Below are positions 1-14,512 of a DNA stretch of 41,879 bases, piece after piece. Source of the stretch: Acetobacteraceae bacterium (GTDB lineage: Bacteria > Pseudomonadota > Alphaproteobacteria > Acetobacterales > Acetobacteraceae); contig JARLIJ010000287.1 of the NCBI GenBank assembly GCA_031291795.1, positions 1 through 41,879 of the forward strand, given 5' to 3'. Positions within the stretch are counted from its first letter, which is position 1. Each line of letters starts with the position of its first letter. A program made the position numbers and the translations under genes. The notes under the pieces are model-generated. The model saw only the letters and a list, made by a program, of their open reading frames with translations. It did not search any database and had not been told where the DNA came from.

Positions 1-1477
1 AAGGGGGAAGCGGGGCGGTGTCGGCAGGTGCGTCGATCCAGCAGCGGTCGCGCTGGAAGACGGCGGTGGGAAGGGCAACCTTGCGGCCGGAGGTGGGCGT
101 AGGGGCGGCGTCCCCAGGCGCACGTTCCAGCACGATATGCGCGTTGGTGCCGCTGAAGCCGAACGAGCTGACGCCGATCGCGCCGATCGGGGATTCGGTC
201 AGCGTGGTGGGCACGCGGATGTCCACCGATCCGAGGTCGATATGCGGGTTCAACTGCCGGAAATGCAGCGTGGGAGGCAGCGCCTGGTGGCGCAGCATCT
301 GCACCGCCTTAATCAGGCCCGCCACGCCGGCGGCGGCCTCGGTATGGCCGATATTGGTCTTCACCGACCCGACATGCAGCGGCCGCGTGCGGCCGGCGAA
401 CACCGAAGCCAGAGCATGCATCTCGATCGGATCGCCGAGCGCGGTGCCGGTGCCGTGGGCTTCCACGTAATCGATCGCGTCGGGACGCATTCCGGCATTC
501 GCCAGCGCGCGGCGGATCACCGCCTCCTGCGCCAGGCCGTTCGGGGCAGTCAGGCCGGCGCTGCGGCCGTCCTGGTTCAGTGCACTGCCGCGGATCACCG
601 CCAGCACGCGGTCGCCGTCGGCCAGCGCCTCCGACAGGCGTTTCAGGACCAGCGCGCCGCAGCCCTCGCCGCGCACATAGCCATCCGCCGCGGCGTCGAA
701 CGTCTTGCACGCGCCGTCCGGCGACAGCATGCGGCCCTGGCAGAAATTCACCGTAATATCCGGCGTCAGCATCAGGTTGACGCCGGCCACCACCGCCAGC
801 CCGCATTCCCGGTTGCGCAGCGCCTGCACCGCCAGATGCGTCGCGACCAGCGAGGATGAGCAGGCGGTGTCCACCGCCATGCACGGCCCCTGGAAGCCGA
901 ACGTGTAGGACAGCCGTCCCGACGCCACCGACGCGGCATTGCCTGCCCCGGCGGACGCATTGCTGCCCGACCCATGCGCGGTGCGCGACAACAAGGCGGA
1001 ATAATCGTTGGTGCTGATGCCGATGAACACGCCGGTCTGGCTGCCGACCAGCGTCGGTGGCGGGATGGCGGCATCCTCCAGCGCCTCCCACGTGGTTTCC
1101 AGCAGCAGGCGCTGTTGCGGATCGATGCCGACCGCCTCGCGCGGGGAGATCCGGAAGAACAGCGGCTCGAACTGGTCCACGCCGTCGATGAAGCAGCTCC
1201 GGCGCACGTACATCTTGCCGGGCCGGCCGGGCGTGGGATCGTACAGCGCGTCGATGTCCCAGCGATCGGGCGGGACCTCCCGGCTGCCGTTGCGCCCGTC
1301 GCGCACGGCGTCCCACAATGCGGCGGGGGAGGTCGCTTCGGCCGGATAGCGGCACGCCATGCCGACGATGGCGATCGGTGCGGTGGCGGCCTGCTCCAGC
1401 TCTGCGATGCGCGCGCGCTGGGCCTGCAACGCGACGACCGCCTGTTGCATGGGCGTCATGGCGACATCGTCAGGCAT
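1..1477 (-). CDS. Type I polyketide synthase, N-terminal ketosynthase portion (truncated by window edge)
   Basis: Reverse-strand frame from ATG at 1477 reads [45 protein letters not shown]...[20 protein letters not shown]...[15 protein letters not shown]...[18 protein letters not shown]...[18 protein letters not shown]; all KS motifs present. Not in the ORF track because it has no stop in the window. Confidence 0.93.
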
Positions 1478-1567
1478 CGTGGGCGGTCCTTTTTTTGGGC
1501 CAGCTTCGCGCGCGGGTCGTCGATCGCGATGGTAACGGGCGGTTCAATTGCATGCCAGACCGAACGG

Positions 1568-2710
1568 TCAATCGCAGGCATTCAGCAACTGGTCGGCGAC
1601 GGCCTGCAGCGGCACCTTGGGCTGGTCGGACGGCGTGCCGGCGATGAGCTGCAGGCAGTCCCACTGCCAGGATAGGATGACGATGCCGCCGCCGCCACGT
1701 GCGGAACTCATGACAAGCTGCATGATCGTATCCGGATCGGCCGTTCGGGTGCCGACGGTGGGCGCGCCGGTGATGGTCATCACAGCGGGCTGGTAGGTCG
1801 GTTCGGCACCCAGCAAAAGCCGAGGCAGAGACAGCAATACATCGCCCGCGGCGCCAATGCGGATCTGCTCGAACAGGGCGGCGCGATTGTCCCGTGCGGC
1901 GTCCCAGAACGGGCCGGGTACGAGCGGCGTGAAGACATGCGCCACGGCGAGGCCGGGGCCACGCGGCGGGGCCGGGCGGATGAAGCGGTCCATGTCGACC
2001 GAGTGTGCAACGGCGTCGATTTGCATCGTGTCGCGCAGCGCGATCGCGAGGGCCCCGTTGAGCGACACGCCCTCGGCCTCGCAGCGGCCTTGCAGGCGCG
2101 TGGTGTCGGTTTGCGAGAGGCGGTGAAGGGAGAACCGGGTGGGTGCCTGGTGCGGCAGGATGGCGGTCAGGCCGCCGCGTCCGAGCGCCTGCCAGCGGAG
2201 GGCGGCGCGGCTGCTCCACCAGGCGTCGAGCAACGCACCGGCGTCGGGCGCGCCGAATGAAGACGCCGGCAGCATTTCCTCGCAGGGTGGCGCGAGCGGA
2301 CCGGAATGTTTGTCGTTGAGGAAAGCGTGGGCGACGTGCAGGCTGGTGCGCCAATCGGTCAGCGCGTGGTTGACCGCCAGAACCAGCGTCGTGGTGTCGG
2401 GGTGGTGCTGGACCACGGCGTGCCATGGCGGATGACCGGCACTGCCGACCCGGATGTCCTGCAGGCGTTGTGCGGCGACAAGCCAGGAATCGTCGCTGTT
2501 CACGTCTTCGTGTTCAAGGGTGCCGGGCCGGTCGGCCTCACCCCAGCGCGGTCGTTGTTGCGCGTCCGTGTGCACCACGGGCACGGCGAAAAGCTGCGGC
2601 TGATCGATCGCGGCGTGGCCCGCGCGCTGCACGACGACCACGCTGTTCATCGGCGCGACCCAGTCCAGCAGCCAGAACTTTGCCTCATTGGGGCTGAGCA
2701 GGCGGTGCAT
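1568..2710 (-). CDS. Condensation-domain/PapA-like acyltransferase
   Basis: 380 aa ORF; TTTLVLAVNHALTDWRTSL resembles the HHxxxDG motif with first His replaced by Asn; sits between PKS and ACP genes. Confidence 0.6.
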   Translation of the reverse strand: MHRLLSPNEAKFWLLDWVAPMNSVVVVQRAGHAAIDQPQLFAVPVVHTDAQQRPRWGEADRPGTLEHEDVNSDDSWLVAAQRLQDIRVGSAGHPPWHAVVQHHPDTTTLVLAVNHALTDWRTSLHVAHAFLNDKHSGPLAPPCEEMLPASSFGAPDAGALLDAWWSSRAALRWQALGRGGLTAILPHQAPTRFSLHRLSQTDTTRLQGRCEAEGVSLNGALAIALRDTMQIDAVAHSVDMDRFIRPAPPRGPGLAVAHVFTPLVPGPFWDAARDNRAALFEQIRIGAAGDVLLSLPRLLLGAEPTYQPAVMTITGAPTVGTRTADPDTIMQLVMSSARGGGGIVILSWQWDCLQLIAGTPSDQPKVPLQAVADQLLNACD

Positions 2711-2713
2711 CGA

Positions 2714-2968
2714 TCAGGCCTTCGCGGTGGCCTTGGCAAGCAGCAGATCGACCATCTTGCCGACGTTCTCCAGCTTGCCGACCTCGGCGGGATTGAGCTT
2801 CACCGCGAAGGCTCGCTCGACGGCCAGCACCAGTACGATGTGCTGCAGCGAATCCCAGTCGTCGAGGTCGGCGGCGGTCATCGTGTCGTGCAATTCGATG
2901 CCGGGATCCTCGAACACGTCCTGGAACACCGTGGTCAGGCGGCGAACGATGTCGGCGCGGTCAGGCAT
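2714..2968 (-). CDS. Free-standing acyl carrier protein
   Basis: 84 aa with phosphopantetheine-site-like DDWDSLQHIVLVLAVERAF. Confidence 0.9.
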   Translation of the reverse strand: MPDRADIVRRLTTVFQDVFEDPGIELHDTMTAADLDDWDSLQHIVLVLAVERAFAVKLNPAEVGKLENVGKMVDLLLAKATAKA

Positions 2969-4838
2969 GCAGCGTTTCCTCTTGGGCGGTGCTCACCCAG
3001 GTTTTCCAGTCTGGGCGCGCGGTGTCGATGGTCCAGTGCGTGACCGTAGCGGTTTCGTCGGCGCAGGCGAAGTCCAGGCGGTCGTACAGACCGGCGACCA
3101 GTGCGTTCTTGGCGGAGCGGACATAGCGGCCGGCGAGGCGGTCACAGCCCGCTTCCTGGGCGATTTTCCGCAACTCATTCGAAATGAAACCTTCGACGGT
3201 GCGTCCGAGGACGCGGCAGCTCATGACCCAGGTGTCGATGTGGAGGGTGCGGTCGATGCGGTGGGTGACTAGCACAGCGATCAGGCCGTTGTCGCCGAAC
3301 CGGTCGGCGAGGTGGATGCGGCGGACGAACCAATCCGGGTGGGCGGCGAGGGCCGCGAGTTCCGCCTCGGTATAGCGGGTGCCGGTCAAATGAAACTGGT
3401 TACTCTTGCCGATGAGCTGCGCCATGCGCGGCAGGTGGAACGGATCGGGGCCGCCGACCGTTGCGACCATCTCCAGGCTTTGCAGGTAGTCGTCCATGTC
3501 GACGAACGCGGCCCGCACGGCGGTGCGTTGGGCGTTCTCAGCGTAATAGCGGCTACGGTCGCGGTCTTCGGCGGAGAAGGCGATGGTTTCGAACCAGTTT
3601 CCGGCGGCCAACGCGGCGACGAAGCCGGACGGGTCGTCAGGCAGTTCGACCACCGCGACCTCCGGCAGATGGCGGCGGACGATGTCGCGTTCGGCCGGGC
3701 TGTCGTCGACGAACACCAGTGCGTCGAGGCCGATGTTCAGGGTGGCGGCGATGTCGCGGATGTTGTCCGCCTTGTTGTCCCAGTTGGCGGTGAACACGGC
3801 GAAATCGTCGCGCCGCAGCACGCTGTCGGGATGGTCGCGGAACACGGCGGTGGCGGTCTCGGGGTCGTTCTTCGAGCAGGCGGCAAGGATCACGCCGCGT
3901 TCCTTCAACGCTCGCACGAAGACCTGGAAGGCCGCGAAGGCTTCCCCGTCGGCGCCGGACCCAAGCCGGATGCCGTTGATCCCGTCGTCGCCGATGACGC
4001 CGCCCCACAGCGTGTTGTCCAGGTCGAGCACGAGGCATTTCTTCGCCAGCCCGCGCGCCCCGGCCAGCAGCCGGGCTGCGGCATGCGCAACAGTGCCGGA
4101 GGCGTCGAGCGCGAAGGCGTGGCGCGAATGGAACCAGTAGCGCGCGTCCGCCCAGCGGCGCTTGCCCCACAGGCTCGCGACATGGTCGAGGTCGAGCAGC
4201 ATTACCCCCGATGGCGCAGCCTCGGGCAAGGCGACGTTGTAGCGGTGCAGTAGCGTACGGCGGCCCCAGGGGGCGGCGCCGGCGAGGTTGCCGAACGGAT
4301 CGTCGACGGGGATGTCGACGGTATTGTCGATGACCAGGCAGCCGGACAGGCTGCGCCACAGCGTTGCCCGCGTCGCGACGGCCTGCGCGATGGCGGTTTC
4401 GATCGCGGTGGTGGGGGCGTCCGGCGGCACGTCCAGCACGACGTCGCGATGGGTGGCGAACAGCCAGACCACGTCCGGCTTCCAGCGGTGCAGTGTGCTG
4501 TCGGGATCGAGCACCGACTGTATCGTGGTGTCGAACGGGGTGATCATTATGTCTGCGTTAAAGCCGGCTTCGGCGAGCCAGAAGCGGAACACGCCGGCCA
4601 GGTGCTCCATCGTGCTGGCGGCCACCAATGCCACGCGCAACGCGCGCAGGCCGATCGCACCGAGGTCGATGGCGGCGAGCGCCTTGGCGACGCGGGCCTG
4701 GTCGACATAGTCGGCCTCCGGCGCGGTGCAGCCGCGCAGGGCGGCGAACGCGGCGCGATGGTCTCCGGCAGCGACGGCCGCCTTGGCGTGCGACAGGGCT
4801 GCCCTGAAGCTGGCCTGGCCTGCTGCGTCCGACGCCAT
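2961..4838 (-). CDS. FkbH-like HAD-superfamily protein (predicted glyceryl-ACP loading enzyme)
   Basis: KKCLVLDLDNTLWGGVIGDDGINGIRLG, CSKNDPETA, VFVDDSPAERDIVRRHLPEVAVVELPDDP, C-terminal GNAT-like segment. Start taken at MASDAAGQ (ATG 4836-4838); the longer ORF to 5477 would overlap the divergent MaoC gene. Confidence 0.9.
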   Translation of the reverse strand: MASDAAGQASFRAALSHAKAAVAAGDHRAAFAALRGCTAPEADYVDQARVAKALAAIDLGAIGLRALRVALVAASTMEHLAGVFRFWLAEAGFNADIMITPFDTTIQSVLDPDSTLHRWKPDVVWLFATHRDVVLDVPPDAPTTAIETAIAQAVATRATLWRSLSGCLVIDNTVDIPVDDPFGNLAGAAPWGRRTLLHRYNVALPEAAPSGVMLLDLDHVASLWGKRRWADARYWFHSRHAFALDASGTVAHAAARLLAGARGLAKKCLVLDLDNTLWGGVIGDDGINGIRLGSGADGEAFAAFQVFVRALKERGVILAACSKNDPETATAVFRDHPDSVLRRDDFAVFTANWDNKADNIRDIAATLNIGLDALVFVDDSPAERDIVRRHLPEVAVVELPDDPSGFVAALAAGNWFETIAFSAEDRDRSRYYAENAQRTAVRAAFVDMDDYLQSLEMVATVGGPDPFHLPRMAQLIGKSNQFHLTGTRYTEAELAALAAHPDWFVRRIHLADRFGDNGLIAVLVTHRIDRTLHIDTWVMSCRVLGRTVEGFISNELRKIAQEAGCDRLAGRYVRSAKNALVAGLYDRLDFACADETATVTHWTIDTARPDWKTWVSTAQEETLHA

Positions 4839-4985
4839 CCCGCTCCCCCGCTGCCTTGTGTGGTGGGACGATAGCCAGTCGGTCGTGCCCACGCCAGCGT
4901 GAACCGCGCTTGCTCCCGACCGGTCCGATATGGCAGCGTCTCCCCACGATCGAACGGCAATCGAATCAACGGGGGAGACCGCAGC

Positions 4986-5447
4986 ATGAGGCCATCCGCC
5001 GCCGCGCTCGTGCTGGAGGATCTCAGCATCGGGCAAAGTGCCGCGTTCGATGCGGTGATTACGGGTAACGACATCGATGCATTTGCGGCGCTGTCCGGCG
5101 ACACCAGCCCGTTGCATGTCGACGCAACGTTCGCGCGGGACCGAGGCTTCGGCGACCGCGTGGCGCATGGCGCGCATCTTGTGGCGCTCGCCAGCCGGCT
5201 TGCGGGGATGTACCTGCCGGGCCGCAACGCGCTGCTGCTTGCGGTGAACGCGTCGTTTGCCGCCCCCGTCCTGCCGGGCACCCGCGTCACCGTCAGCGGG
5301 GTCGTCGAGCAGGTGTCCGACAGCGTGCGGTCGGTCGTGCTGAAGCTGCGCGTGGTGGACACCGACAGCCGCGCGACCCTCGCCCGCGGCCGGCTGACGA
5401 TTGGTTTCACCGATGGCGGACCCGCCCGGAGCACCGCCCATGGATGA
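4986..5447 (+). CDS. MaoC-like (R)-specific enoyl-CoA hydratase/dehydratase
   Basis: NDIDAFAALSGDTSPLHVDATFARDRGFGDRVAHGAHLVALASRL hot-dog/MaoC pattern; GGGGGAG RBS upstream of ATG 4986. Confidence 0.85.
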   Translation: MRPSAAALVLEDLSIGQSAAFDAVITGNDIDAFAALSGDTSPLHVDATFARDRGFGDRVAHGAHLVALASRLAGMYLPGRNALLLAVNASFAAPVLPGTRVTVSGVVEQVSDSVRSVVLKLRVVDTDSRATLARGRLTIGFTDGGPARSTAHG

Positions 5448-7068
5448 TGTCGACCTGATCCTGGTCACCCAGTCCAACGTCGTGGATTATGAGGGCTACG
5501 GCAAGCTGCCGCTCGACCGGCTGGACCTGTACAAATCGCTGGTCTATCCGCGGATGGTGCACCATGCGGGCGGGTTCCGCTCGCACCTGGACTACCTCAA
5601 CCACCGTCGGTTTGGAAAGTTCTTCGAGGACGGCACGTATCCCGAACGGCGCCAGATGATGAACATCTGGAACCTGCCGTCGATGTCCGGCGTGCACCTG
5701 GCGAACTACCTGACGCAGTTCGGCCTGCGGGTGCGGGTGATCAACAACCTCGACGCCGAGTGGGACTGGTTCGAGGCGGCCTATGCCGCGTGCCGGCGGC
5801 CGCCGCTAGTGGGCATTTCTTCCACGTTCTATCTGTCGTGGAAGGAAGTGGGCAATGTCGCGAAGCGGTTGCGCGCGATCGACCCGGACATGGACATCGT
5901 GCTGGGCGGTGCGTTCGCCAATGCCGAGACCATCCACAACAGCCCGGACGATTTTGCTGCCCGCATGCGCCGGTTCGGCATTCGCTATGTGCTGCACGCG
6001 TTCAACTCGGAACCCGACCTGCGCGATCTGCTGCTGGCACGCAGGAAGGCCGGCGGGTACGGCGACGTGCACAACCTGGCCTGGATCGCGGGCAGCCTGC
6101 AGACCGGCAGCTTCGAAGGCGGCTCGAAGCAATGGAACACCCCGCTGCTGGCGCTGGCCGACGTGCCGCCGACCTGGCATCTGCAGGACCTACCATTTCT
6201 CAACCGGACCATCCAGATCCGCACCGCGTCGGGCTGTCCGTTCGCCTGCGCGTTCTGCTCCTATCCGACCACGGCCGGGCCGTGGACCACGGTCGAGTCC
6301 GAACATGTGCGGGCGCACCTGGACTCGGTGATGAAGATCCCCGGCATCGACCGCATCATCTTCATCGATGACACATTCAACGTGCCGCCGCACCGGTTTC
6401 GCGAGCTGATCCGCATCTTCGCGGAGTACCCGTTCGAATGGTTCTCCTTCCTGCGCGTGCAGTACGTGAACGAGGACGACGTGAAGCTGATGAAGGACTC
6501 CGGGTGCGCCGGCGTCTATCTCGGCATCGAATCGGCGTCCGACACGGTGCTGAAGAACATGAACAAGCGGGCGACGGGCAAGCAGTTCGCCGAGGGCGTG
6601 CGGCTGCTCAACAAATACGACATCCCCTATCTGGCCGCCTTCGTGCTGGGCTTCCCCGGCGAGACCGACGCCACCATCCAGCAGAACGTCGATTTCATCC
6701 GCAACAACGGCGTGCGATTCTACTCGCTGAAAGAATTCTTCTACATGGCGCACACCCAGGTGCACGACAAGCGGAACGAGTACGGCCTGACCGGCATGGG
6801 CGGCAAATGGTCGCACGCCACGATGAACCATGAGGACGCCGCGCGGATAAAGCTCGATATCTTCCAGTCAGTGACCGAAAGCACCCATATCGATCCCGAT
6901 ACCAGCTTGTGGTACATGGCGTATCTCTACGACCAGGGCTACGACTTCGCCGAGATCACCCGCCAGCAGGGCGGCATCAACGACCTGATGAAGCGCCAGC
7001 TTGCCACGCTGGATCGCGCGCCGTCCTGGGAGACGGCCGCGCTCGCCCCGCTGCGCGCGGCGGAATAG
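5440..7068 (+). CDS. Radical SAM protein with N-terminal B12-binding-like region
   Basis: CPFACAFCSYPTTAG = CxxxCxxC cluster motif; preceding VGISSTFYLSWKEVGNVAKRLRAIDPDMDIVLGGAFAN resembles the B12-binding fold of this class; overlaps MaoC stop (alternative start 5413). Confidence 0.88.
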   Translation: MDDVDLILVTQSNVVDYEGYGKLPLDRLDLYKSLVYPRMVHHAGGFRSHLDYLNHRRFGKFFEDGTYPERRQMMNIWNLPSMSGVHLANYLTQFGLRVRVINNLDAEWDWFEAAYAACRRPPLVGISSTFYLSWKEVGNVAKRLRAIDPDMDIVLGGAFANAETIHNSPDDFAARMRRFGIRYVLHAFNSEPDLRDLLLARRKAGGYGDVHNLAWIAGSLQTGSFEGGSKQWNTPLLALADVPPTWHLQDLPFLNRTIQIRTASGCPFACAFCSYPTTAGPWTTVESEHVRAHLDSVMKIPGIDRIIFIDDTFNVPPHRFRELIRIFAEYPFEWFSFLRVQYVNEDDVKLMKDSGCAGVYLGIESASDTVLKNMNKRATGKQFAEGVRLLNKYDIPYLAAFVLGFPGETDATIQQNVDFIRNNGVRFYSLKEFFYMAHTQVHDKRNEYGLTGMGGKWSHATMNHEDAARIKLDIFQSVTESTHIDPDTSLWYMAYLYDQGYDFAEITRQQGGINDLMKRQLATLDRAPSWETAALAPLRAAE

Positions 7069-7095
7069 GCGGCACCGCACGCCTCGCATCGCGGC

Positions 7096-8457
7096 ATGAC
7101 CGTCGTCGACCTGCCATTCCTGCTGATCGCGCTCGCCACCATCCTGGTGCTGCGCTTTACCCCGCTGCGGACCCGGCGCGTCGAGGTCCTTGCGGTCGCG
7201 AGCCTAGGCTTCGTCGCGAGCGTGACCCGGTCGGTCGGCGATGCCGCCTGCCTGCTGGCGATGGCCGCGACAGGATGGTTCCTGATGAAAGCGCTTGCGC
7301 GCCACAAGCGCGGCTGGCTGTTGGCGGGCGGCATCGCCTGCGTGCTGGCGGAGTTCGTCGTCAGCCGCCGCGTCCTGCCGATGACGTGGGACGCCATGGG
7401 GCCGACCATCGGGCTGTCCTACGTGATGTTCCGCGTCATCCACCTCGCGGTCGACGCCCAGGGTGACGAACTGCCTGCCGGCCTGCGGCTGCGCGACTAT
7501 GTCTGCTACCTGTTCTGCTACCTGACCTTCCTCGCCGGCCCCATCCAGCGCGTCCAGGACTTTACCGCCGAGGCAGCGCGGCCCATCCGCACCACGCTGC
7601 GCACCGCGCTGGCGGACGACCTGCCCGGGCTCCTGGGCGGCACCCTCAAAGTCACCGTCCTGGCCGGAGCAGCGTTCACGGTCTTCACCTGGAGCCAGAG
7701 CCCCGCCTTGCCCGCCGCGCTCGCCCATGCCGTCGCGTGGCTCAGCTTTACGGCGTGGCTGTATTGGAGCTTCTCCGGCTACACCGATGTCGTGCGCGGC
7801 ATTGGCGGATTGCTCGACTTTCATCTGCCGGAAAACTTCGCGCAGCCTTTTGCGTCGGCGAACTTCCTTGACCTGTGGTCACGCTGGCACATCAGCCTGT
7901 CCGAATGGTTCAAGCTCTACGTGTTCAATCCGAGCGTGAAAGAATTGATCGCGGTTGCGAACCGGCCCGCGCTGACGGCGTATCTGGGCGCGGTCGGATA
8001 TTTCGTGACGTTCTTCCTGATGGGCCTGTGGCACGGGATCAGCCTGCGCTTCGTGCTGTACGGCCTGTGCCTCGGGGCCGGCGTCAGCGTCAATAAGCTT
8101 TACCAGGCGCTGATACTGAAACGATTGGGCCGGCCGCGCTACGCGGCTCTGACGCGCCGTCCGCTTTACATGGCCGGCGCACGTGCGTTGGCGGTGAGCT
8201 TCTTCGTCCTGGCGCTGGGGTTCCTGTGGATCCCCGGCGACACCGGCCCCGGGTTGGCCTGGACGGCCGGCGGCGCGCTGGTCGTCCTGTGCGTCGGGTT
8301 GCTGGTCATCGCCGCGTCGGCCGTGAAACGCATCGGGGTGCGAATCCCGTTGACCCGGACCATGACCATTGCGCTGTGTACGGCAGAGGCGGTCGCCGTC
8401 CTGGCCTACCTGCTGGTAGGCGGGCCGGTGCCGCCGCTGCTCTACACGTATTTCTGA
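7096..8457 (+). CDS. MBOAT-family (AlgI/DltB-like) membrane O-acyltransferase
   Basis: Multi-TM protein; YWSFSGYTDVVRGIGGLLDFHLPENFAQPFASANFLDLWSRWHISLSEWFKLYVF...FFLMGLWHGIS. Confidence 0.88.
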   Translation: MTVVDLPFLLIALATILVLRFTPLRTRRVEVLAVASLGFVASVTRSVGDAACLLAMAATGWFLMKALARHKRGWLLAGGIACVLAEFVVSRRVLPMTWDAMGPTIGLSYVMFRVIHLAVDAQGDELPAGLRLRDYVCYLFCYLTFLAGPIQRVQDFTAEAARPIRTTLRTALADDLPGLLGGTLKVTVLAGAAFTVFTWSQSPALPAALAHAVAWLSFTAWLYWSFSGYTDVVRGIGGLLDFHLPENFAQPFASANFLDLWSRWHISLSEWFKLYVFNPSVKELIAVANRPALTAYLGAVGYFVTFFLMGLWHGISLRFVLYGLCLGAGVSVNKLYQALILKRLGRPRYAALTRRPLYMAGARALAVSFFVLALGFLWIPGDTGPGLAWTAGGALVVLCVGLLVIAASAVKRIGVRIPLTRTMTIALCTAEAVAVLAYLLVGGPVPPLLYTYF

Positions 8458-8467
8458 ACTTGCGGCC

Positions 8468-8875
8468 TCAGCCCTGCATCGCCTTGCGGACGTCGAGCGC
8501 GGCCTGACGATAATCGTAGGTCGGATAGAACTCGGTACGGTAGCCGCCCCAGGCCGATTCCTCCAGCACGCGATTGACCTCCCGTAACCGCTCCGGCGGC
8601 ACCTTCAGCGTCACCACCTGGCCGATGCCCATCATGACGTACCACGACACGACCTCGATCCCCGGCGGCGGGAAGCGTCGGAAGAAGCCGGTCTGCTTCA
8701 GGTGCTCGTTGATCTCCGCAAGCGTCTTGGTCTCATCGTGACGCAGGAACACGGTCAGCAGGAAGTCCTGCGCTGCCGCGGCCGGCGCGGGGGGCGCCTG
8801 CTGCGCATCGGCCACACCCGCAACCAGGGTCAGAAGCGTGGCGCCGGTCACTGCGCGCCGGGTCGTCGTGGTCAT
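8468..8875 (-). CDS. Small exported protein of unknown function
   Basis: Signal-peptide-like N-terminus MTTTTRRAVTGATLLTLVAGVADAQQ; ~110 aa mature domain. Confidence 0.65.
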   Translation of the reverse strand: MTTTTRRAVTGATLLTLVAGVADAQQAPPAPAAAAQDFLLTVFLRHDETKTLAEINEHLKQTGFFRRFPPPGIEVVSWYVMMGIGQVVTLKVPPERLREVNRVLEESAWGGYRTEFYPTYDYRQAALDVRKAMQG

Positions 8876-9050
8876 ACTGTTCTCTCTCCGCATCTCGTCG
8901 GTTGAACCGAAAGCCGTACCGCTCTTGCGGTTTGGCAGGGCAGCCATGTCCGCGCCGGTCGGTGGTCGCCGCGCGGATGCAGCGCATATGGGGATGCGAT
9001 CGCAGTGCGAATGGAGAAAGGGTCACGCCGGGGATAGTGCGGCAGGCCCG

Positions 9051-9084
9051 CCTGTTTGCTATTCTGTGGAAAACCGCAAACAGG
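9051..9084. promoter_or_regulatory. Perfect 9-bp inverted repeat over the LysR-gene leader/RBS
   Basis: CCTGTTTGC-N16-GCAAACAGG, 8 nt before ATG 9093. Confidence 0.75.
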
Positions 9085-9092
9085 AACGAGCC

Positions 9093-10082
9093 ATGCCGCG
9101 AGGGTCGGATCGGCTGTTGCTACAGCCTGACGAGAATCACGATGTCGTTACTCCCGAGGTGATAACCAACCACCCTGGGGAACTCGTAAGCTGGGCCAAT
9201 GTAGACCTCAACCTGCTGGTGGTGTTCGACGCCATCCTGCAGGACGCCAGCCTCACGCGCGCGGGCCGTCGGCTCGGCCTCAGCCAGCCCGCCACCAGCC
9301 ACGCCCTGGGGCGCCTGCGCCACATGCTGCATGACGAATTGTTCATCCGCGGCCCTGACGGCATGCAGCCCACCCCCCGCGCCATTCAGATGGCCGAACC
9401 GGTGCGCGAGGCGCTCAGCCTGTTGCGCCTGACGCTGGAGCCCGAGGAATTCGATCCGCGCACCAGCAAGCGCAAGTTCACGCTCGCGGTCAACAACTTC
9501 GCCGCCCGCGCCATCATCCCCGCCTTGACGCGCCGGGTCGCACAGGAGGCGCCGAATCTCTCGCTCGACGTGCGCCCGATCGGTCGGCTGGACGTGCTCG
9601 ATTCGCTGGACTCGGATGGCGCGGACGTCGCCCTGACCGTGGTGGGCGAGGGCGGCGAGCGCTTCAAATGCGTGCGCATCATGGAGGACGACTACGTCGC
9701 GGTGCTCGACCGCAACCATCCGGCTGCGCACACGGTGCTCACCCACAAGCGCCTGGCGGAGATGCCGCACATCGCCGTCACCTCGACCGGCGACGACACC
9801 AGCTTCGTCGATCGTGCCCTGGCCGAGCACGGACTGACCCGCCGGATCGCCGTGCGCGTGCCGTTCCTCACGATCGCCGTGCTGCTGGCGGACTCCGAAT
9901 ACGTCGTGGTCTTGCCGCGACGGGTCGGCACCGACCTTGCGAGAATTTGTTCGCTGGTGGTGAAGGACCTGCCGTTCGCGCCGCCATGGATCGCGGTTTC
10001 GATGATCTGGCACCGGCGGCTCGACAACCACCCGGCCCAGCGCTGGCTGCGTGATACGATCCGTAGCATTTCTCCGGATTGA
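9093..10082 (+). CDS. LysR-family transcriptional regulator
   Basis: VDLNLLVVFDAILQDASLTRAGRRLGLSQPATSHALGRLRHMLHDELFIR HTH plus substrate-binding domain. Confidence 0.95.
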   Translation: MPRGSDRLLLQPDENHDVVTPEVITNHPGELVSWANVDLNLLVVFDAILQDASLTRAGRRLGLSQPATSHALGRLRHMLHDELFIRGPDGMQPTPRAIQMAEPVREALSLLRLTLEPEEFDPRTSKRKFTLAVNNFAARAIIPALTRRVAQEAPNLSLDVRPIGRLDVLDSLDSDGADVALTVVGEGGERFKCVRIMEDDYVAVLDRNHPAAHTVLTHKRLAEMPHIAVTSTGDDTSFVDRALAEHGLTRRIAVRVPFLTIAVLLADSEYVVVLPRRVGTDLARICSLVVKDLPFAPPWIAVSMIWHRRLDNHPAQRWLRDTIRSISPD

Positions 10083-10185
10083 ACTGCCACATTCGCGCCG
10101 CACATGTCCCCATGCGTACGGCGACGGCTCCCCTGGACCCACCTGCCGACAATATGAGTGCGTGTCAGTGAAGTCAGGAGGTCCG

Positions 10186-11358
10186 ATGCCCGGTTCGGCG
10201 CGGTTTTCATTCCGCTCATGGAGAAATGTGCTCGGGGTGGCGCTGGGCGCGGCCCTGGCCGGCGGCACCGCGATCGGGGTCGGCATGGCGCAGCAGGCGG
10301 CGCCGGCCTCCGCGCCCGCCAATGCTCCCCCTGCCAACCCCGCCGTGCCGGTGATGACGACGGTCGCGCAGCGTCGCGACGTACCGATCGACGCCGAGGG
10401 TGTCGGCACCATCCAGGCCTACCAGTCAGTGTTGATCCGTTCGCGCGTCGACGGCCAGCTCATGCAGGTCCCGGTGGCCGAGGGCCAGATGGTGCGCAAG
10501 GGCGACCTGATCGCGCAAATCGATCCACGGCCTTACCAGGCGGCGCTCGACGGTGCCCGCGCCAGGCAGGCGCAGGACGCCGCCCAACTGGCGAACGCAC
10601 AGCGCGACCTGGTGCGCTATTCGTCGCTGTCGCGGCAGGACTTCGCGTCGCGCCAGCAGGTCGACACCCAGCAGGCACTGGTGAACCAGGACGTCGCCAC
10701 GGTGCAGGGTGATGTCGCCGCAGTGGAAGCGGCACAGATCAATCTCGACTACTGCTCGATCACCTCGCCAGTGGACGGGCGCGTCGGGCTGCGGCTGGTC
10801 GATCCCGGCAACCTGGTGCACGCCACCGACACGACCGGCATCATCAGCATCACCCAGGTGCATCCGATCGCGCTGACCTTCACCCTGCCACAGACCGCGC
10901 TGCCCGCGATCCAGGCCGGCCTGGCGCAGGGCAAGCTCCCGGTGCGGGCCTACAGCACGGACGACCGCACGCTGCTGGGGGAGGGCACGCTGCTGACCCC
11001 GGACAACGCGATCGACACCACGACCGGCACGATCCGGTTGAAGGCGGTGTTTGCGAACCAGGACAACCGGCTGTGGCCGGGCCAGTTCGTCAACGCCCAT
11101 CAGCAACTTTCGATCGCGCACCAGGCCGTGACGGTGGCGCCGGCGGCGATCCAGCACGGGCCGGACGGGCTGTACGTCTATCTTGTCAAGCCGGACAACA
11201 GCGTCGCCAGCCAGCCTGTGACGGTCGGCTACCAGACCCCGCAACTGGCGGTCGTCACCGCTGGCCTCTCGGGCGGCGAAACCGTCGTGCTCAGCGGCCA
11301 GTCCCGGTTGCAGCCCGGCCTGCGAGTCGCTGCCACGCCCGCCCCGGCAGCGGGTTGA
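10186..11358 (+). CDS. RND efflux periplasmic adaptor subunit (MdtA/AcrA-like)
   Basis: VLIRSRVDGQLMQVPVAEGQMVRKGDLIAQIDPRPYQAALDGARARQ; SD aggagg before ATG 10186; followed by RND permease. Confidence 0.93.
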   Translation: MPGSARFSFRSWRNVLGVALGAALAGGTAIGVGMAQQAAPASAPANAPPANPAVPVMTTVAQRRDVPIDAEGVGTIQAYQSVLIRSRVDGQLMQVPVAEGQMVRKGDLIAQIDPRPYQAALDGARARQAQDAAQLANAQRDLVRYSSLSRQDFASRQQVDTQQALVNQDVATVQGDVAAVEAAQINLDYCSITSPVDGRVGLRLVDPGNLVHATDTTGIISITQVHPIALTFTLPQTALPAIQAGLAQGKLPVRAYSTDDRTLLGEGTLLTPDNAIDTTTGTIRLKAVFANQDNRLWPGQFVNAHQQLSIAHQAVTVAPAAIQHGPDGLYVYLVKPDNSVASQPVTVGYQTPQLAVVTAGLSGGETVVLSGQSRLQPGLRVAATPAPAAG

Positions 11359-11383
11359 ACCCATCTTCTGACGGACGGTCCGC

Positions 11384-14300
11384 ATGAGTATTTCCACGCC
11401 CTTCATCCGGCGCCCGATCGGCACATCGTTGCTGATGGCGGCCGTCTTCCTGGTGGGGCTGGCGGCCTATCCGCTGCTGCCGGTGGCCCCCCTGCCGCAG
11501 GTGGACTTCCCGACCATCACCGTTACTGCCCAGTATCCCGGCGCCAGCCCGGACACCATGGCCTCCTCCGTCGCCGAACCGCTGGAGACGCAGTTCAGCC
11601 AGATCAACGGCCTGGCGCAGATGACGTCGATGAACGTGCTGGGCACCAGCACGCTGACACTGCAGTTCGACCTCGACCGCAACATCGACGCCGCCGCCGC
11701 CGACGTGCTGGAGGCGATCAACGCCGCGCAAGGCCAGTTGCCGAAGAACCTGCCCAACCAGCCGACGATCCGGAAGATCAACCCGGCCGACGCGCCGATC
11801 TTTCTGCTGTCGGTACAGTCCGACCAATTGCCGCTGACCGCGGTCGATGATGCCGCCGAGAACATCCTGGCCCAGCATCTGTCGAAGATCTCCGGCGTTG
11901 CGCAGGTCCTGGTGGGCGGCCAGCAGAAGCCTGCCATCCGCGTGCAGATCGATCCCGCGAAGCTGGCCTCGATGGGCCTGACGCTGGAGGACGTGCGTGG
12001 CGTGCTGGCCAACGCCACGGTGAACAGCCCGAAGGGCAGCATCGACGGGCCGACCTCGTCCTACACCGTGATGGCGGACGATCAGCTCACGCACCCGGAC
12101 CCGTACAACGACATCGTCGTGGCCTGGAAGAATGGTGCGCCGGTGCGCATCCGCGACATCGGCCAGGCCGTGCGCGGCCCGCAGAATCGCGAGCTGCAGG
12201 CCTGGCAGAACGGCAAGTCCGGCGTGCTGCTGGTGGTGTTCAAGCAGCCGGGTGCCAACGTCATCGGCACGGTGGATCGCGTGAAGGCGGCGCTGCCGGC
12301 GCTGGAGGCCTCGATACCGCCCGCTATCCACGTCAACACCATCGTCGATCGCACGCAGACCATCCGCGCTTCCGTGGCCGACGTGGAGTTCACGCTGGCG
12401 CTGTCGATCGGCCTTGTCGTGATGGTGATCTTCCTGTTCCTGCGCAGCGTCTGGGCGACGATCATCCCGTCCATCACCGTCCCGCTCGCGCTGGTCGGCA
12501 CGCTGGCCGTGATGTACGTGCTGGGCTACAGCCTGGACAATCTGTCGCTGATGGCGCTGACCATCGCGGTCGGCTTCGTGGTCGACGATGCGATCGTGAT
12601 GCTGGAGAACATCCACCGCCACATCGAGGACGGCATGGCGCCGATGGAGGCGGCCATCAAGGGCGCCGGCGAGATCGGCTTCACCATCGTCTCCATCAGC
12701 GTGTCGTTGATCGCCGTGTTCATCCCGCTGCTGCTGATGGGTGGCATCGTGGGCCGGCTGTTCCGCGAGTTCGCCATGACGGTGTCGATCACCGTGGTGG
12801 TCTCGGCGATGGTGTCGCTGACGCTGACGCCGATGATGTCGTCGCGCTTCCTGGCCGCCGAACATGGCAAACACGGCAAGCTCTACCGCATCATTGAAGC
12901 AGGCTTCGACGGTATCCTCGGCTTCTACCGGCGCACGCTGGATATCGCTCTGAAGTTCCGGTTCATCACGCTGATGGTGTTCCTGGCCACGGTGACGGTG
13001 ACCGGCATGCTGTTCGTTGCAATCCCCAAGGGCTTCTTTCCGACCCAGGATATCGGCCTGATCATCGGCATCACGGAGGGCGCGCAGAACGCCTCCTACC
13101 AGCAGATGGTCGAGCTGCAACGCAAGATCAACGACATCATCGGGCAGGACCCGGCGGTGGCGAGCTATGCCGCGCAGGTCGGCGCGGGGACGGCCGGCCA
13201 GCAGGGCAATGACGGGCGCGTCTACATCAACCTGAAGCCGTGGGACCAGCGGCCGGGCGATGACGTGATGAAGGTGATCGCCCGGCTGTCGCAGAAGGTG
13301 CAGTCGGTGGCCGGCATCCAGCTGTTCATGCAGCCGGCGCAGGACATCAACGTCGGCGGCCGCATGTCACGCACGATGTATCAGTACACCCTGCAGGACG
13401 CCGATACCGGGGAGCTGAATGCCTGGGCGCCGAAGCTCCTCGCGCGGATGAAGGCCGATCCGCATCTGCGCGACGTCGCGACCGACCAGCAGATCGCCGG
13501 CACCACGGCCACGCTGACGATCGACCGCAACGCCGCCCAGCGCTTCGGCATCCAGCCGCAGCAGATCGACGACACGCTGTACGACGCGTTCGGCCAGCGT
13601 GAGGTGACGCAGTACTTCACCCAGCTCAACTCGTATTTCGTGATCCTGGAGGTGCCGCCGGACCTGGAGGGTGAGGTCTCGACGCTGGACAAGCTGTACG
13701 TGAAGGCGCCCAGCGGGCAGGCGGTGCCGCTGTCGGTGCTGGTGCATGTCGATACGCGGCCGGTGACGCCGCTGGCCGTCAACCACCAGAGCCAGTTCCC
13801 CGCCGTGACCATCTCCTTCAACCTCGCAGCCGGCGCCTCGCTCGGAGACGCCGTGAACGCGATCGACAGCATGCGGACGGAGCTGCACGCACCGCTTTCG
13901 CTGGAGGGCGACTTCGAGGGATCGGCCCAGGCTTTCCAGAGTTCGCTGGCGAGCGAGCCCTACCTGATCGCAGCCGCGCTGACTGCGGTCTACATCATCC
14001 TGGGCGTGCTGTATGAGAGCTACATCCTGCCGCTGACCATCCTCTCGACGCTGCCATCCGCGGGCGTGGGCGCTCTGCTGATGCTGATGGCGGCGCACAC
14101 CGACCTTTCCGTGATCGCGATGATCGGCGTCATCCTGCTGATCGGCATCGTCAAGAAGAACGGCATCATGATGGTGGACTTTGCCATCCACGCCGAACGC
14201 AACGACGGCATGGCGCCGCTGAACGCGATCCGCCAGGCCTGCCTGTTGCGCTTCCGCCCGATCCTGATGACGACGATGGCCGCCCTGCTGTCCGGCCTGC

Positions 14301-14512
14301 CGCTGATGCTGGAGAACGGGGCGGGGTCGGAACTGCGCAAACCGCTGGGCTATGCGATGGTCGGCGGCCTTGCACTGAGCCAGATCCTGACGCTTTACAC
14401 GACCCCGGTGATCTACCTGTACCTCGACCGGCTGCAGCATTGGCTGATGCCGCGGCGGCACGCGCATCTGCCGCGACTGGCATCGAAGTTGGCCGAAGCC
14501 GAGGGGGACTGA
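11384..14512 (+). CDS. RND multidrug efflux permease (MdtB/MdtC/AcrB-like)
   Basis: 1042 aa; N-term RRPIGTSLLMAAVFLVGLAAYPLLPVAPLPQVDFPTITVTAQYPGASPDTMASSVAEPLE; VGFVVDDAIVMLENIHRHIEDG. Confidence 0.96.
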   Translation: MSISTPFIRRPIGTSLLMAAVFLVGLAAYPLLPVAPLPQVDFPTITVTAQYPGASPDTMASSVAEPLETQFSQINGLAQMTSMNVLGTSTLTLQFDLDRNIDAAAADVLEAINAAQGQLPKNLPNQPTIRKINPADAPIFLLSVQSDQLPLTAVDDAAENILAQHLSKISGVAQVLVGGQQKPAIRVQIDPAKLASMGLTLEDVRGVLANATVNSPKGSIDGPTSSYTVMADDQLTHPDPYNDIVVAWKNGAPVRIRDIGQAVRGPQNRELQAWQNGKSGVLLVVFKQPGANVIGTVDRVKAALPALEASIPPAIHVNTIVDRTQTIRASVADVEFTLALSIGLVVMVIFLFLRSVWATIIPSITVPLALVGTLAVMYVLGYSLDNLSLMALTIAVGFVVDDAIVMLENIHRHIEDGMAPMEAAIKGAGEIGFTIVSISVSLIAVFIPLLLMGGIVGRLFREFAMTVSITVVVSAMVSLTLTPMMSSRFLAAEHGKHGKLYRIIEAGFDGILGFYRRTLDIALKFRFITLMVFLATVTVTGMLFVAIPKGFFPTQDIGLIIGITEGAQNASYQQMVELQRKINDIIGQDPAVASYAAQVGAGTAGQQGNDGRVYINLKPWDQRPGDDVMKVIARLSQKVQSVAGIQLFMQPAQDINVGGRMSRTMYQYTLQDADTGELNAWAPKLLARMKADPHLRDVATDQQIAGTTATLTIDRNAAQRFGIQPQQIDDTLYDAFGQREVTQYFTQLNSYFVILEVPPDLEGEVSTLDKLYVKAPSGQAVPLSVLVHVDTRPVTPLAVNHQSQFPAVTISFNLAAGASLGDAVNAIDSMRTELHAPLSLEGDFEGSAQAFQSSLASEPYLIAAALTAVYIILGVLYESYILPLTILSTLPSAGVGALLMLMAAHTDLSVIAMIGVILLIGIVKKNGIMMVDFAIHAERNDGMAPLNAIRQACLLRFRPILMTTMAALLSGLPLMLENGAGSELRKPLGYAMVGGLALSQILTLYTTPVIYLYLDRLQHWLMPRRHAHLPRLASKLAEAEGD

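Follow-up and report, generated by a model that had tools for sequence, protein, structure and literature searches.

The window analyzed here is a 41,879-nucleotide stretch of DNA from an Acetobacteraceae bacterium (assembly GCA_031291795.1, contig JARLIJ010000287.1), which is the complete contig C112 of a genome that is 68.8% complete. Its left end (positions 1-8457) carries seven genes in two divergent runs, separated by a shared 147-bp intergenic (promoter) region at 4839-4985 that has no strand of its own. On the minus strand, reading away from this region, are an FkbH-type enzyme composed of a HAD-IIIC phosphatase and an acyl-transfer part (2961-4838), a stand-alone acyl carrier protein (ACP; 2714-2968), a free-standing condensation-fold acyltransferase, hereafter the C-like protein (1568-2710), and the ketosynthase (KS) start of a terminal polyketide synthase-nonribosomal peptide synthetase (PKS-NRPS) gene without an acyltransferase (AT) domain (2-1477), which runs off the contig. 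On the plus strand are a MaoC-type (R)-specific hydratase/dehydratase (4986-5447), a PhpK-like B12-binding radical SAM (rSAM) protein (5440-7068, its start fixed from homologs), and a membrane-bound O-acyltransferase (MBOAT) of the DltB/AlgI type (7096-8457). Most genes of each run are tightly spaced or overlap, and the KS start lies 90 bp past the end of the C-like gene. All seven genes are present in the orientations and families that had been read from the sequence in the original prediction; Pfam and NCBIfam support the family names, except for the C-like protein, which was placed by its structure model.

The catalytic motifs of the window proteins are intact. The KS domain, recognized by Pfam, retains DTACSS, EAHGTGT, and NIGHTE. 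The FkbH-type protein, assigned by profile, motifs, and tree, scores 296.9 bits against TIGR01686 (cut-off 146.65) and is therefore a family member by the curated score; it has a DxD HAD motif and carries DLDNTLW and MSCRVLG, and its motifs are invariant across 18 homologs apart from N275G in two. The ACP matches the Pfam PP-binding family and has DSL within its phosphopantetheine site, DWDSLQH, with Ser40 invariant in 17 homologs. GDTSPLH represents the GDxSPLH motif in the MaoC-type protein (PF01575, 68.1 bits), whose D39 and H44 are invariant in 13 homologs, and the rSAM protein (PF04055, with a weak B12-binding match) has its CxxxCxxC motif as CPFACAFC. The MBOAT matches PF03062. In PDB sequence searches the relatives recovered were all distant, namely AprD4 with the rSAM protein and the uncharacterized BF1531 (residues 61-423) with FkbH.

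The left part of the gene set had been placed outside the window. The set does continue leftward, but the contig itself ends, and the remainder lies on contig C82: the first 99 bases of C112 are identical to C82 with the reading frame kept, and homologs are contiguous across the junction. On C82 the PKS gene continues as linker-DH-MT-KR-ACP-ACP-Cy-A-MT-PCP-TE and is followed by P450 genes. In an uncultured Rhodopila metagenome-assembled genome (G024, named via locus L053), the KS and the remainder are contiguous with no AT between KS and DH. The same KS-linker-DH arrangement without AT was read at the junctions of G024, G019, G030, Roseomonas ponticola, L041, and L045, and the P0008 domains likewise show no AT, so that this module is AT-less (trans-AT type); other modules of the same cluster carry an AT. 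Comparison of window 1-125 with C82 20699-20797 (L009 10700-10798) indicates that C112 lacks a post-KS linker of ~75 residues found in C82 and in all homologs read. This is probably an assembly effect, a strain variant being the alternative.

In R. ponticola the entire cluster lies on one contig, at about 422.8-495.4 kb (~72 kb). A gene for a type II thioesterase comes first, then eight genes of the PKS/NRPS kind, a nitroreductase, and a methyltransferase, and the cluster continues with MBOAT, rSAM, and MaoC genes divergent from FkbH, ACP, C-like, and terminal PKS-NRPS genes, followed by two P450s. The seven-gene set is thus the edge of a large PKS-NRPS cluster that seems not to have been described, not a small cluster. 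Since the window KS stands at the start of the last protein in an assembly line of ~72 kb, the expectation of a small glyceryl- or lactyl-primed polyketide is argued against, and this KS most likely receives a long chain and not a C3 starter. AT domains occur in three R. ponticola modules (425.2, 440.6, and 469.1 kb), and AT-containing and AT-less modules are mixed in one cluster (R. ponticola 439-474 kb, L069 and L070; C82, P0008). The terminal protein has tandem ACPs, and heterocyclization (Cy)-like domains of the PKS suggest a thiazole as well as a methylated thiazoline. In G019 and G030, the genes for the C-like protein and the terminal PKS contain in-frame repeated-peptide insertions (VMAGEGRPSTT..., VVDGRDKPGHD...) resembling ORF-internal repeats; the repeat-bearing genes lie at L087 12146-13618 and 322-12132 and at L089 15031-16362 and 2997-15128.

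A genome-wide scan with the rSAM alignment recovered 17 orthologous loci whose rSAM proteins are 50-84% identical to that of the window, giving 18 loci with the window, from Alphaproteobacteria, Planctomycetota, Binatota, and Myxococcota. Many are contigs of metagenome-assembled genomes; the cultured carriers are R. ponticola, Falsiroseomonas stagni, F. algicola, Thalassobaculum fulvum, and Paramagnetospirillum marisnigri. FkbH is encoded within 10 kb of rSAM in 15 of the 18 loci and MaoC beside it in 17. An MBOAT gene lies within 10 kb in 17 loci, and in the eighteenth (L054) the rSAM match is followed by 158 bp of contig. No ACP turned up in L047. In the three FkbH exceptions (L039 in G030, L040 in G019, and L042 in the Thalassobaculum genome G208), FkbH is encoded elsewhere in the genome with 63-71% identity, accompanied by ACP and C-like genes and, in G019 and G030, by the terminal PKS-NRPS gene. 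The halves lie on different contigs in G019 and G030; independence of the two halves, prompted by these genomes, was dropped when FkbH-ACP-C-like-PKS turned up on their other contigs. That the genes belong together is supported by the presence of both halves in every PKS-type genome examined, even on different contigs, although the 10 PKS-type genomes are partly close relatives and do not represent 10 independent events. A lack of co-conservation had been named beforehand as one finding that would overturn the original prediction, and the neighborhoods show halves that can come apart physically and yet have not evolved independently.

The separate contigs of G019 and G030 speak for a PKS-NRPS edge that merely happens to lie beside an unrelated MaoC-rSAM-MBOAT operon, but with both halves kept in every PKS-type genome, and with FkbH, ACP, MaoC, and rSAM grouped in unrelated phyla even where the PKS is absent, we consider such a chance neighborhood extremely improbable. 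The genomes checked hold one or two FkbH genes each, and chance linkage in most loci is therefore not credible; we estimate it at <1% per locus. The rSAM protein is rare: at E <= 1e-50 it was found in 1 of 385 genomes sampled by class and in 3 of 399 sampled by phylum, with the genome of the window included in both counts; one phylum-sample match (G568, rSAM 46.5% identical) has pieces of FkbH and MaoC alongside. Plasmid-borne rSAM copies were looked for and none were found. Within the alphaproteobacterial groups the FkbH and rSAM trees are concordant. The rSAM proteins of L054 and L055 share 65-66% identity with that of the window and their FkbH proteins only 37-39%, so that a close rSAM is paired with a distant FkbH. 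A second, clearly separate FkbH paralog (42-44% identical) is present in four related genomes (contig C99, L011 672-2642; L081; L083; L084), and that of the window genome, on C99, is near genes for a TPR protein and minC/minD-like genes.

The core of FkbH, ACP, MaoC, rSAM, and MBOAT occurs in two settings, one in PKS-NRPS clusters, where the C-like protein is added, and one in surface-polysaccharide clusters. The occurrence of the core without any PKS in other phyla had been missed in the original prediction. In L046, L047, and L050 the cassette lies amid glycosyltransferase, DegT aminotransferase, asparagine-synthase-like, and acetyltransferase genes, several of them named by reading the sequences and not by profiles, and in L050 and L046 its flanks are glycosyltransferase, aminotransferase, and asparagine-synthase-like genes. 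A protein of ~350 amino acids with GxSN and DxxH motifs adjoins the MBOAT in L046, L047, L050, and L055. Its structure model (pLDDT 65, higher in the core regions) matches SGNH proteins, among them PatB and TesA, and DltD weakly. A profile of this SGNH family (A4) found one copy in each of the three glycan-type genomes searched, all three of which had contributed to the profile.

The window MBOAT scores 155.5 bits against the DltB family TIGR04091, which is below the cut-off; DltB is the best NCBIfam family for these MBOATs. It contains GLWHG, with the WHG histidine of the DltB/AlgI type. All recovered MBOATs of the family have [FLV][ILV]YxxF at the C-terminal end. In PatA, a C-terminal FXYXXF motif is auto-acylated on its Tyr and supplies an SGNH protein, whereas in the Dlt system the acyl-carrying Tyr sits on DltX, and DltC is the carrier protein from which DltB draws the acyl group (PMC12148441). 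The LLYTYF terminus of the window MBOAT keeps the Tyr and last Phe of FXYXXF, with L instead of F at the first position; the MBOATs of L048 and L049 have an exact FIYFQF. Judged from sequence, this shuttle-like terminus is the strongest functional clue in the gene set, and one of which the original prediction made no use. The co-encoded and conserved ACP is the predicted acyl donor for the MBOAT.

No Pfam or NCBIfam family matches the C-like protein. In Foldseek its structure model (pLDDT 72) matched NRPS condensation and cyclization domains, SgcC5, and PapA5 with probability 1.00, E values down to 2e-19, and TM scores of about 0.6. It has the two-lobed chloramphenicol-acetyltransferase-like fold and the HxxxD motif of the condensation superfamily; the window protein reads NHALTD, and H115 and D119 of xHALTD[WY] are invariant in 10 homologs. 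It shares the fold and the catalytic His/Asp with free-standing acyltransferases of the condensation fold such as SgcC5 and PapA5. It differs from them in having no sequence-family match and in replacing the first His of HHxxxDG with N or S and the G with W or Y. The modeled fold and catalytic residues would suit an enzyme that forms an ester or amide using a carrier-bound donor. C-like genes are present in 10 of 10 PKS-type genomes and were not found in the non-PKS rSAM loci; among 150 genomes sampled across the family, a scan recovered just the genome of the window and a single marginal match.

The probable task of the gene set as a whole is to assemble an unusual acyl group of three or four carbons on a small carrier protein and to hand this group across the membrane. 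FkbH-family enzymes dephosphorylate 1,3-bisphosphoglycerate and load a glycerate unit onto an ACP, and the window FkbH would do so with the stand-alone ACP. The MaoC-type enzyme would then remove or shift water on the ACP-bound C3 unit, possibly by an elimination using the 3-hydroxyl of glyceryl-ACP that yields enol-pyruvyl- or pyruvyl-ACP, or it may act on a later intermediate. The cobalamin rSAM protein may methylate the ACP-bound unit, most likely on carbon. By analogy with DltB/DltX and PatA, the MBOAT would draw the acyl group from the ACP onto its own periplasm-facing C-terminal Tyr. In the surface-polysaccharide setting the SGNH partner would pass it on to a glycan. In the PKS-NRPS setting the C-like protein would probably esterify the PKS-NRPS product with the glycerate-derived ACP-bound unit, and the acyl group would have two outlets, the MBOAT at the membrane and the C-like protein.

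The closest named family of the rSAM protein is TIGR04479 (PhpK), which it matches at 348.7 bits, with three relatives at 363-383 bits, and like the P-methyltransferases PhpK and BcpD it has a B12-binding domain and a radical SAM core. If it were such a P-methyltransferase, the pathway would yield a phosphinate or phosphonate. We consider this highly unlikely, because the scores are well under the family cut-off of 600 and because phosphoenolpyruvate (PEP) mutase, unlike in a PhpK or BcpD pathway, is not over its cut-off in most hosts: of 11 genomes with the cassette, just 1 has a match above it, the sole strong sub-cut-off match (285 bits) being in Thalassobaculum. Most carriers therefore lack the usual entry into phosphonates, and methylation of carbon is likelier than of phosphorus. 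In another genome (G648; L086 10140-13387), a distant PhpK-like rSAM gene (31%) is followed by an ACP gene and then by one for an adenylation (AMP-binding) enzyme, which may point to another carrier-bound substrate for the PhpK-like rSAM superfamily.

FkbH and a stand-alone ACP form half of the route to hydroxymalonyl- or methoxymalonyl-type extender units, as in FK520 or zwittermicin, and the adjoining KS module is AT-less and might accept such a unit. The neighbors of FkbH-ACP, in the window as in R. ponticola, include no FkbK/FkbI/FkbG-type dehydrogenases or O-methyltransferase, MaoC and B12 rSAM enzymes are foreign to the methoxymalonyl pathway, and the cassette exists without a PKS; we hold this extender role to be very doubtful, and the methoxymalonyl version was rejected for the dehydrogenases and O-methyltransferase missing from the operon. 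Less improbable, though still rather unlikely, is that the cassette supplies the PKS starter, a MaoC- and rSAM-modified glycerate-derived acyl-ACP handed by the C-like protein to the first module, with the MBOAT tailoring the product. FkbH-derived glyceryl and lactyl starters are known in other PKSs, the first R. ponticola PKS protein opens with an ACP before the KS and shows no loading AT, and the C-like protein could operate between carrier proteins. Such a role sits poorly with a cassette that adjoins the terminal and not the first PKS-NRPS gene and with a core that also occurs in genomes without this PKS, and it leaves the MBOAT with its shuttle-like motif unexplained.

With slightly better than even confidence, we favor a modular cassette for producing an acyl group and exporting it in a Dlt-like manner, coupled in the window to a PKS-NRPS. 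This reading builds on features that were directly observed: the gene content, intact active sites, co-conservation of the halves, the split between SGNH and C-like partners, and the shuttle-like MBOAT terminus. Several observations weigh against it. Every chemical step, the substrate, and the final product are deduced from gene content, and with the rSAM protein under the PhpK cut-off, methylation itself is read from family membership. The SGNH profile, which covers the A4 family only, found none in eight PKS-type genomes (that of the window and seven others), nor was an A4-family SGNH found in L049 or L052. PKS-type MBOATs have L or V at the F position of the DltX motif, and the MBOATs near L048 and L049 are just 26-27% identical to that of the window and may belong to a different subfamily. 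The Thalassobaculum cluster yielded no MaoC. The FkbH proteins of L052, L054, and L055 (37-40% identity) are no closer than the non-cassette paralog (42-44%), so the cassette has in part been reassembled.

Like the DltABCDX system for D-alanylation of teichoic acids, the cassette has a predicted carrier-bound small acyl group, a DltB-like MBOAT, a Tyr motif resembling the shuttle motif, and, in the glycan-type loci, an SGNH protein. It differs in having FkbH as the predicted loader instead of DltA, in the predicted remodeling of the acyl group by MaoC and B12 rSAM enzymes, in carrying the motif on the MBOAT C terminus and not on DltX, in its Gram-negative hosts, and in the lack of an A4-family SGNH protein in the PKS type. 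Because an SGNH partner was sought and not found, the window locus was not filed as a member of the Dlt/MBOAT-SGNH systems. PatA/PatB and AlgI/AlgJ/AlgX share the MBOAT with a C-terminal FXYXXF-like motif, and several loci share the PatB-fold SGNH partner; however, PatA uses an acetyl group from acetyl-CoA, and those systems have no FkbH, ACP, MaoC, or rSAM. FkbH glyceryl-ACP pathways (the tetronates RK-682 and tetromadurin, oocydin, and methoxymalonyl-ACP) likewise have FkbH and a stand-alone ACP by PKS genes, whereas the cassette has no FkbG/I/K beside FkbH, adds MaoC, B12 rSAM, and MBOAT, and also occurs free of PKS. The original prediction had recognized no described pathway in this gene set, and the open-access literature searched gave no account of FkbH combined with radical SAM and MBOAT. 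To the right of the cassette, window 8838-14512 encodes a LysR-type regulator, then a membrane-fusion protein and an RND efflux pump; no sign of their belonging to the cluster was seen in relatives.

More tentatively, the cassette could represent a new carrier-protein-dependent route of acyl export, leading from 1,3-bisphosphoglycerate to a methylated C4 acyl-ACP that interchangeably decorates extracellular glycans, through MBOAT and SGNH, or a polyketide-peptide, through a condensation-fold transferase. If true, this would link two usually unconnected fields, the acylation of cell-surface polymers by Dlt/MBOAT-SGNH systems and polyketide biosynthesis, and the B12 rSAM family nearest to the PhpK P-methyltransferases would gain a probable new carrier-bound substrate.

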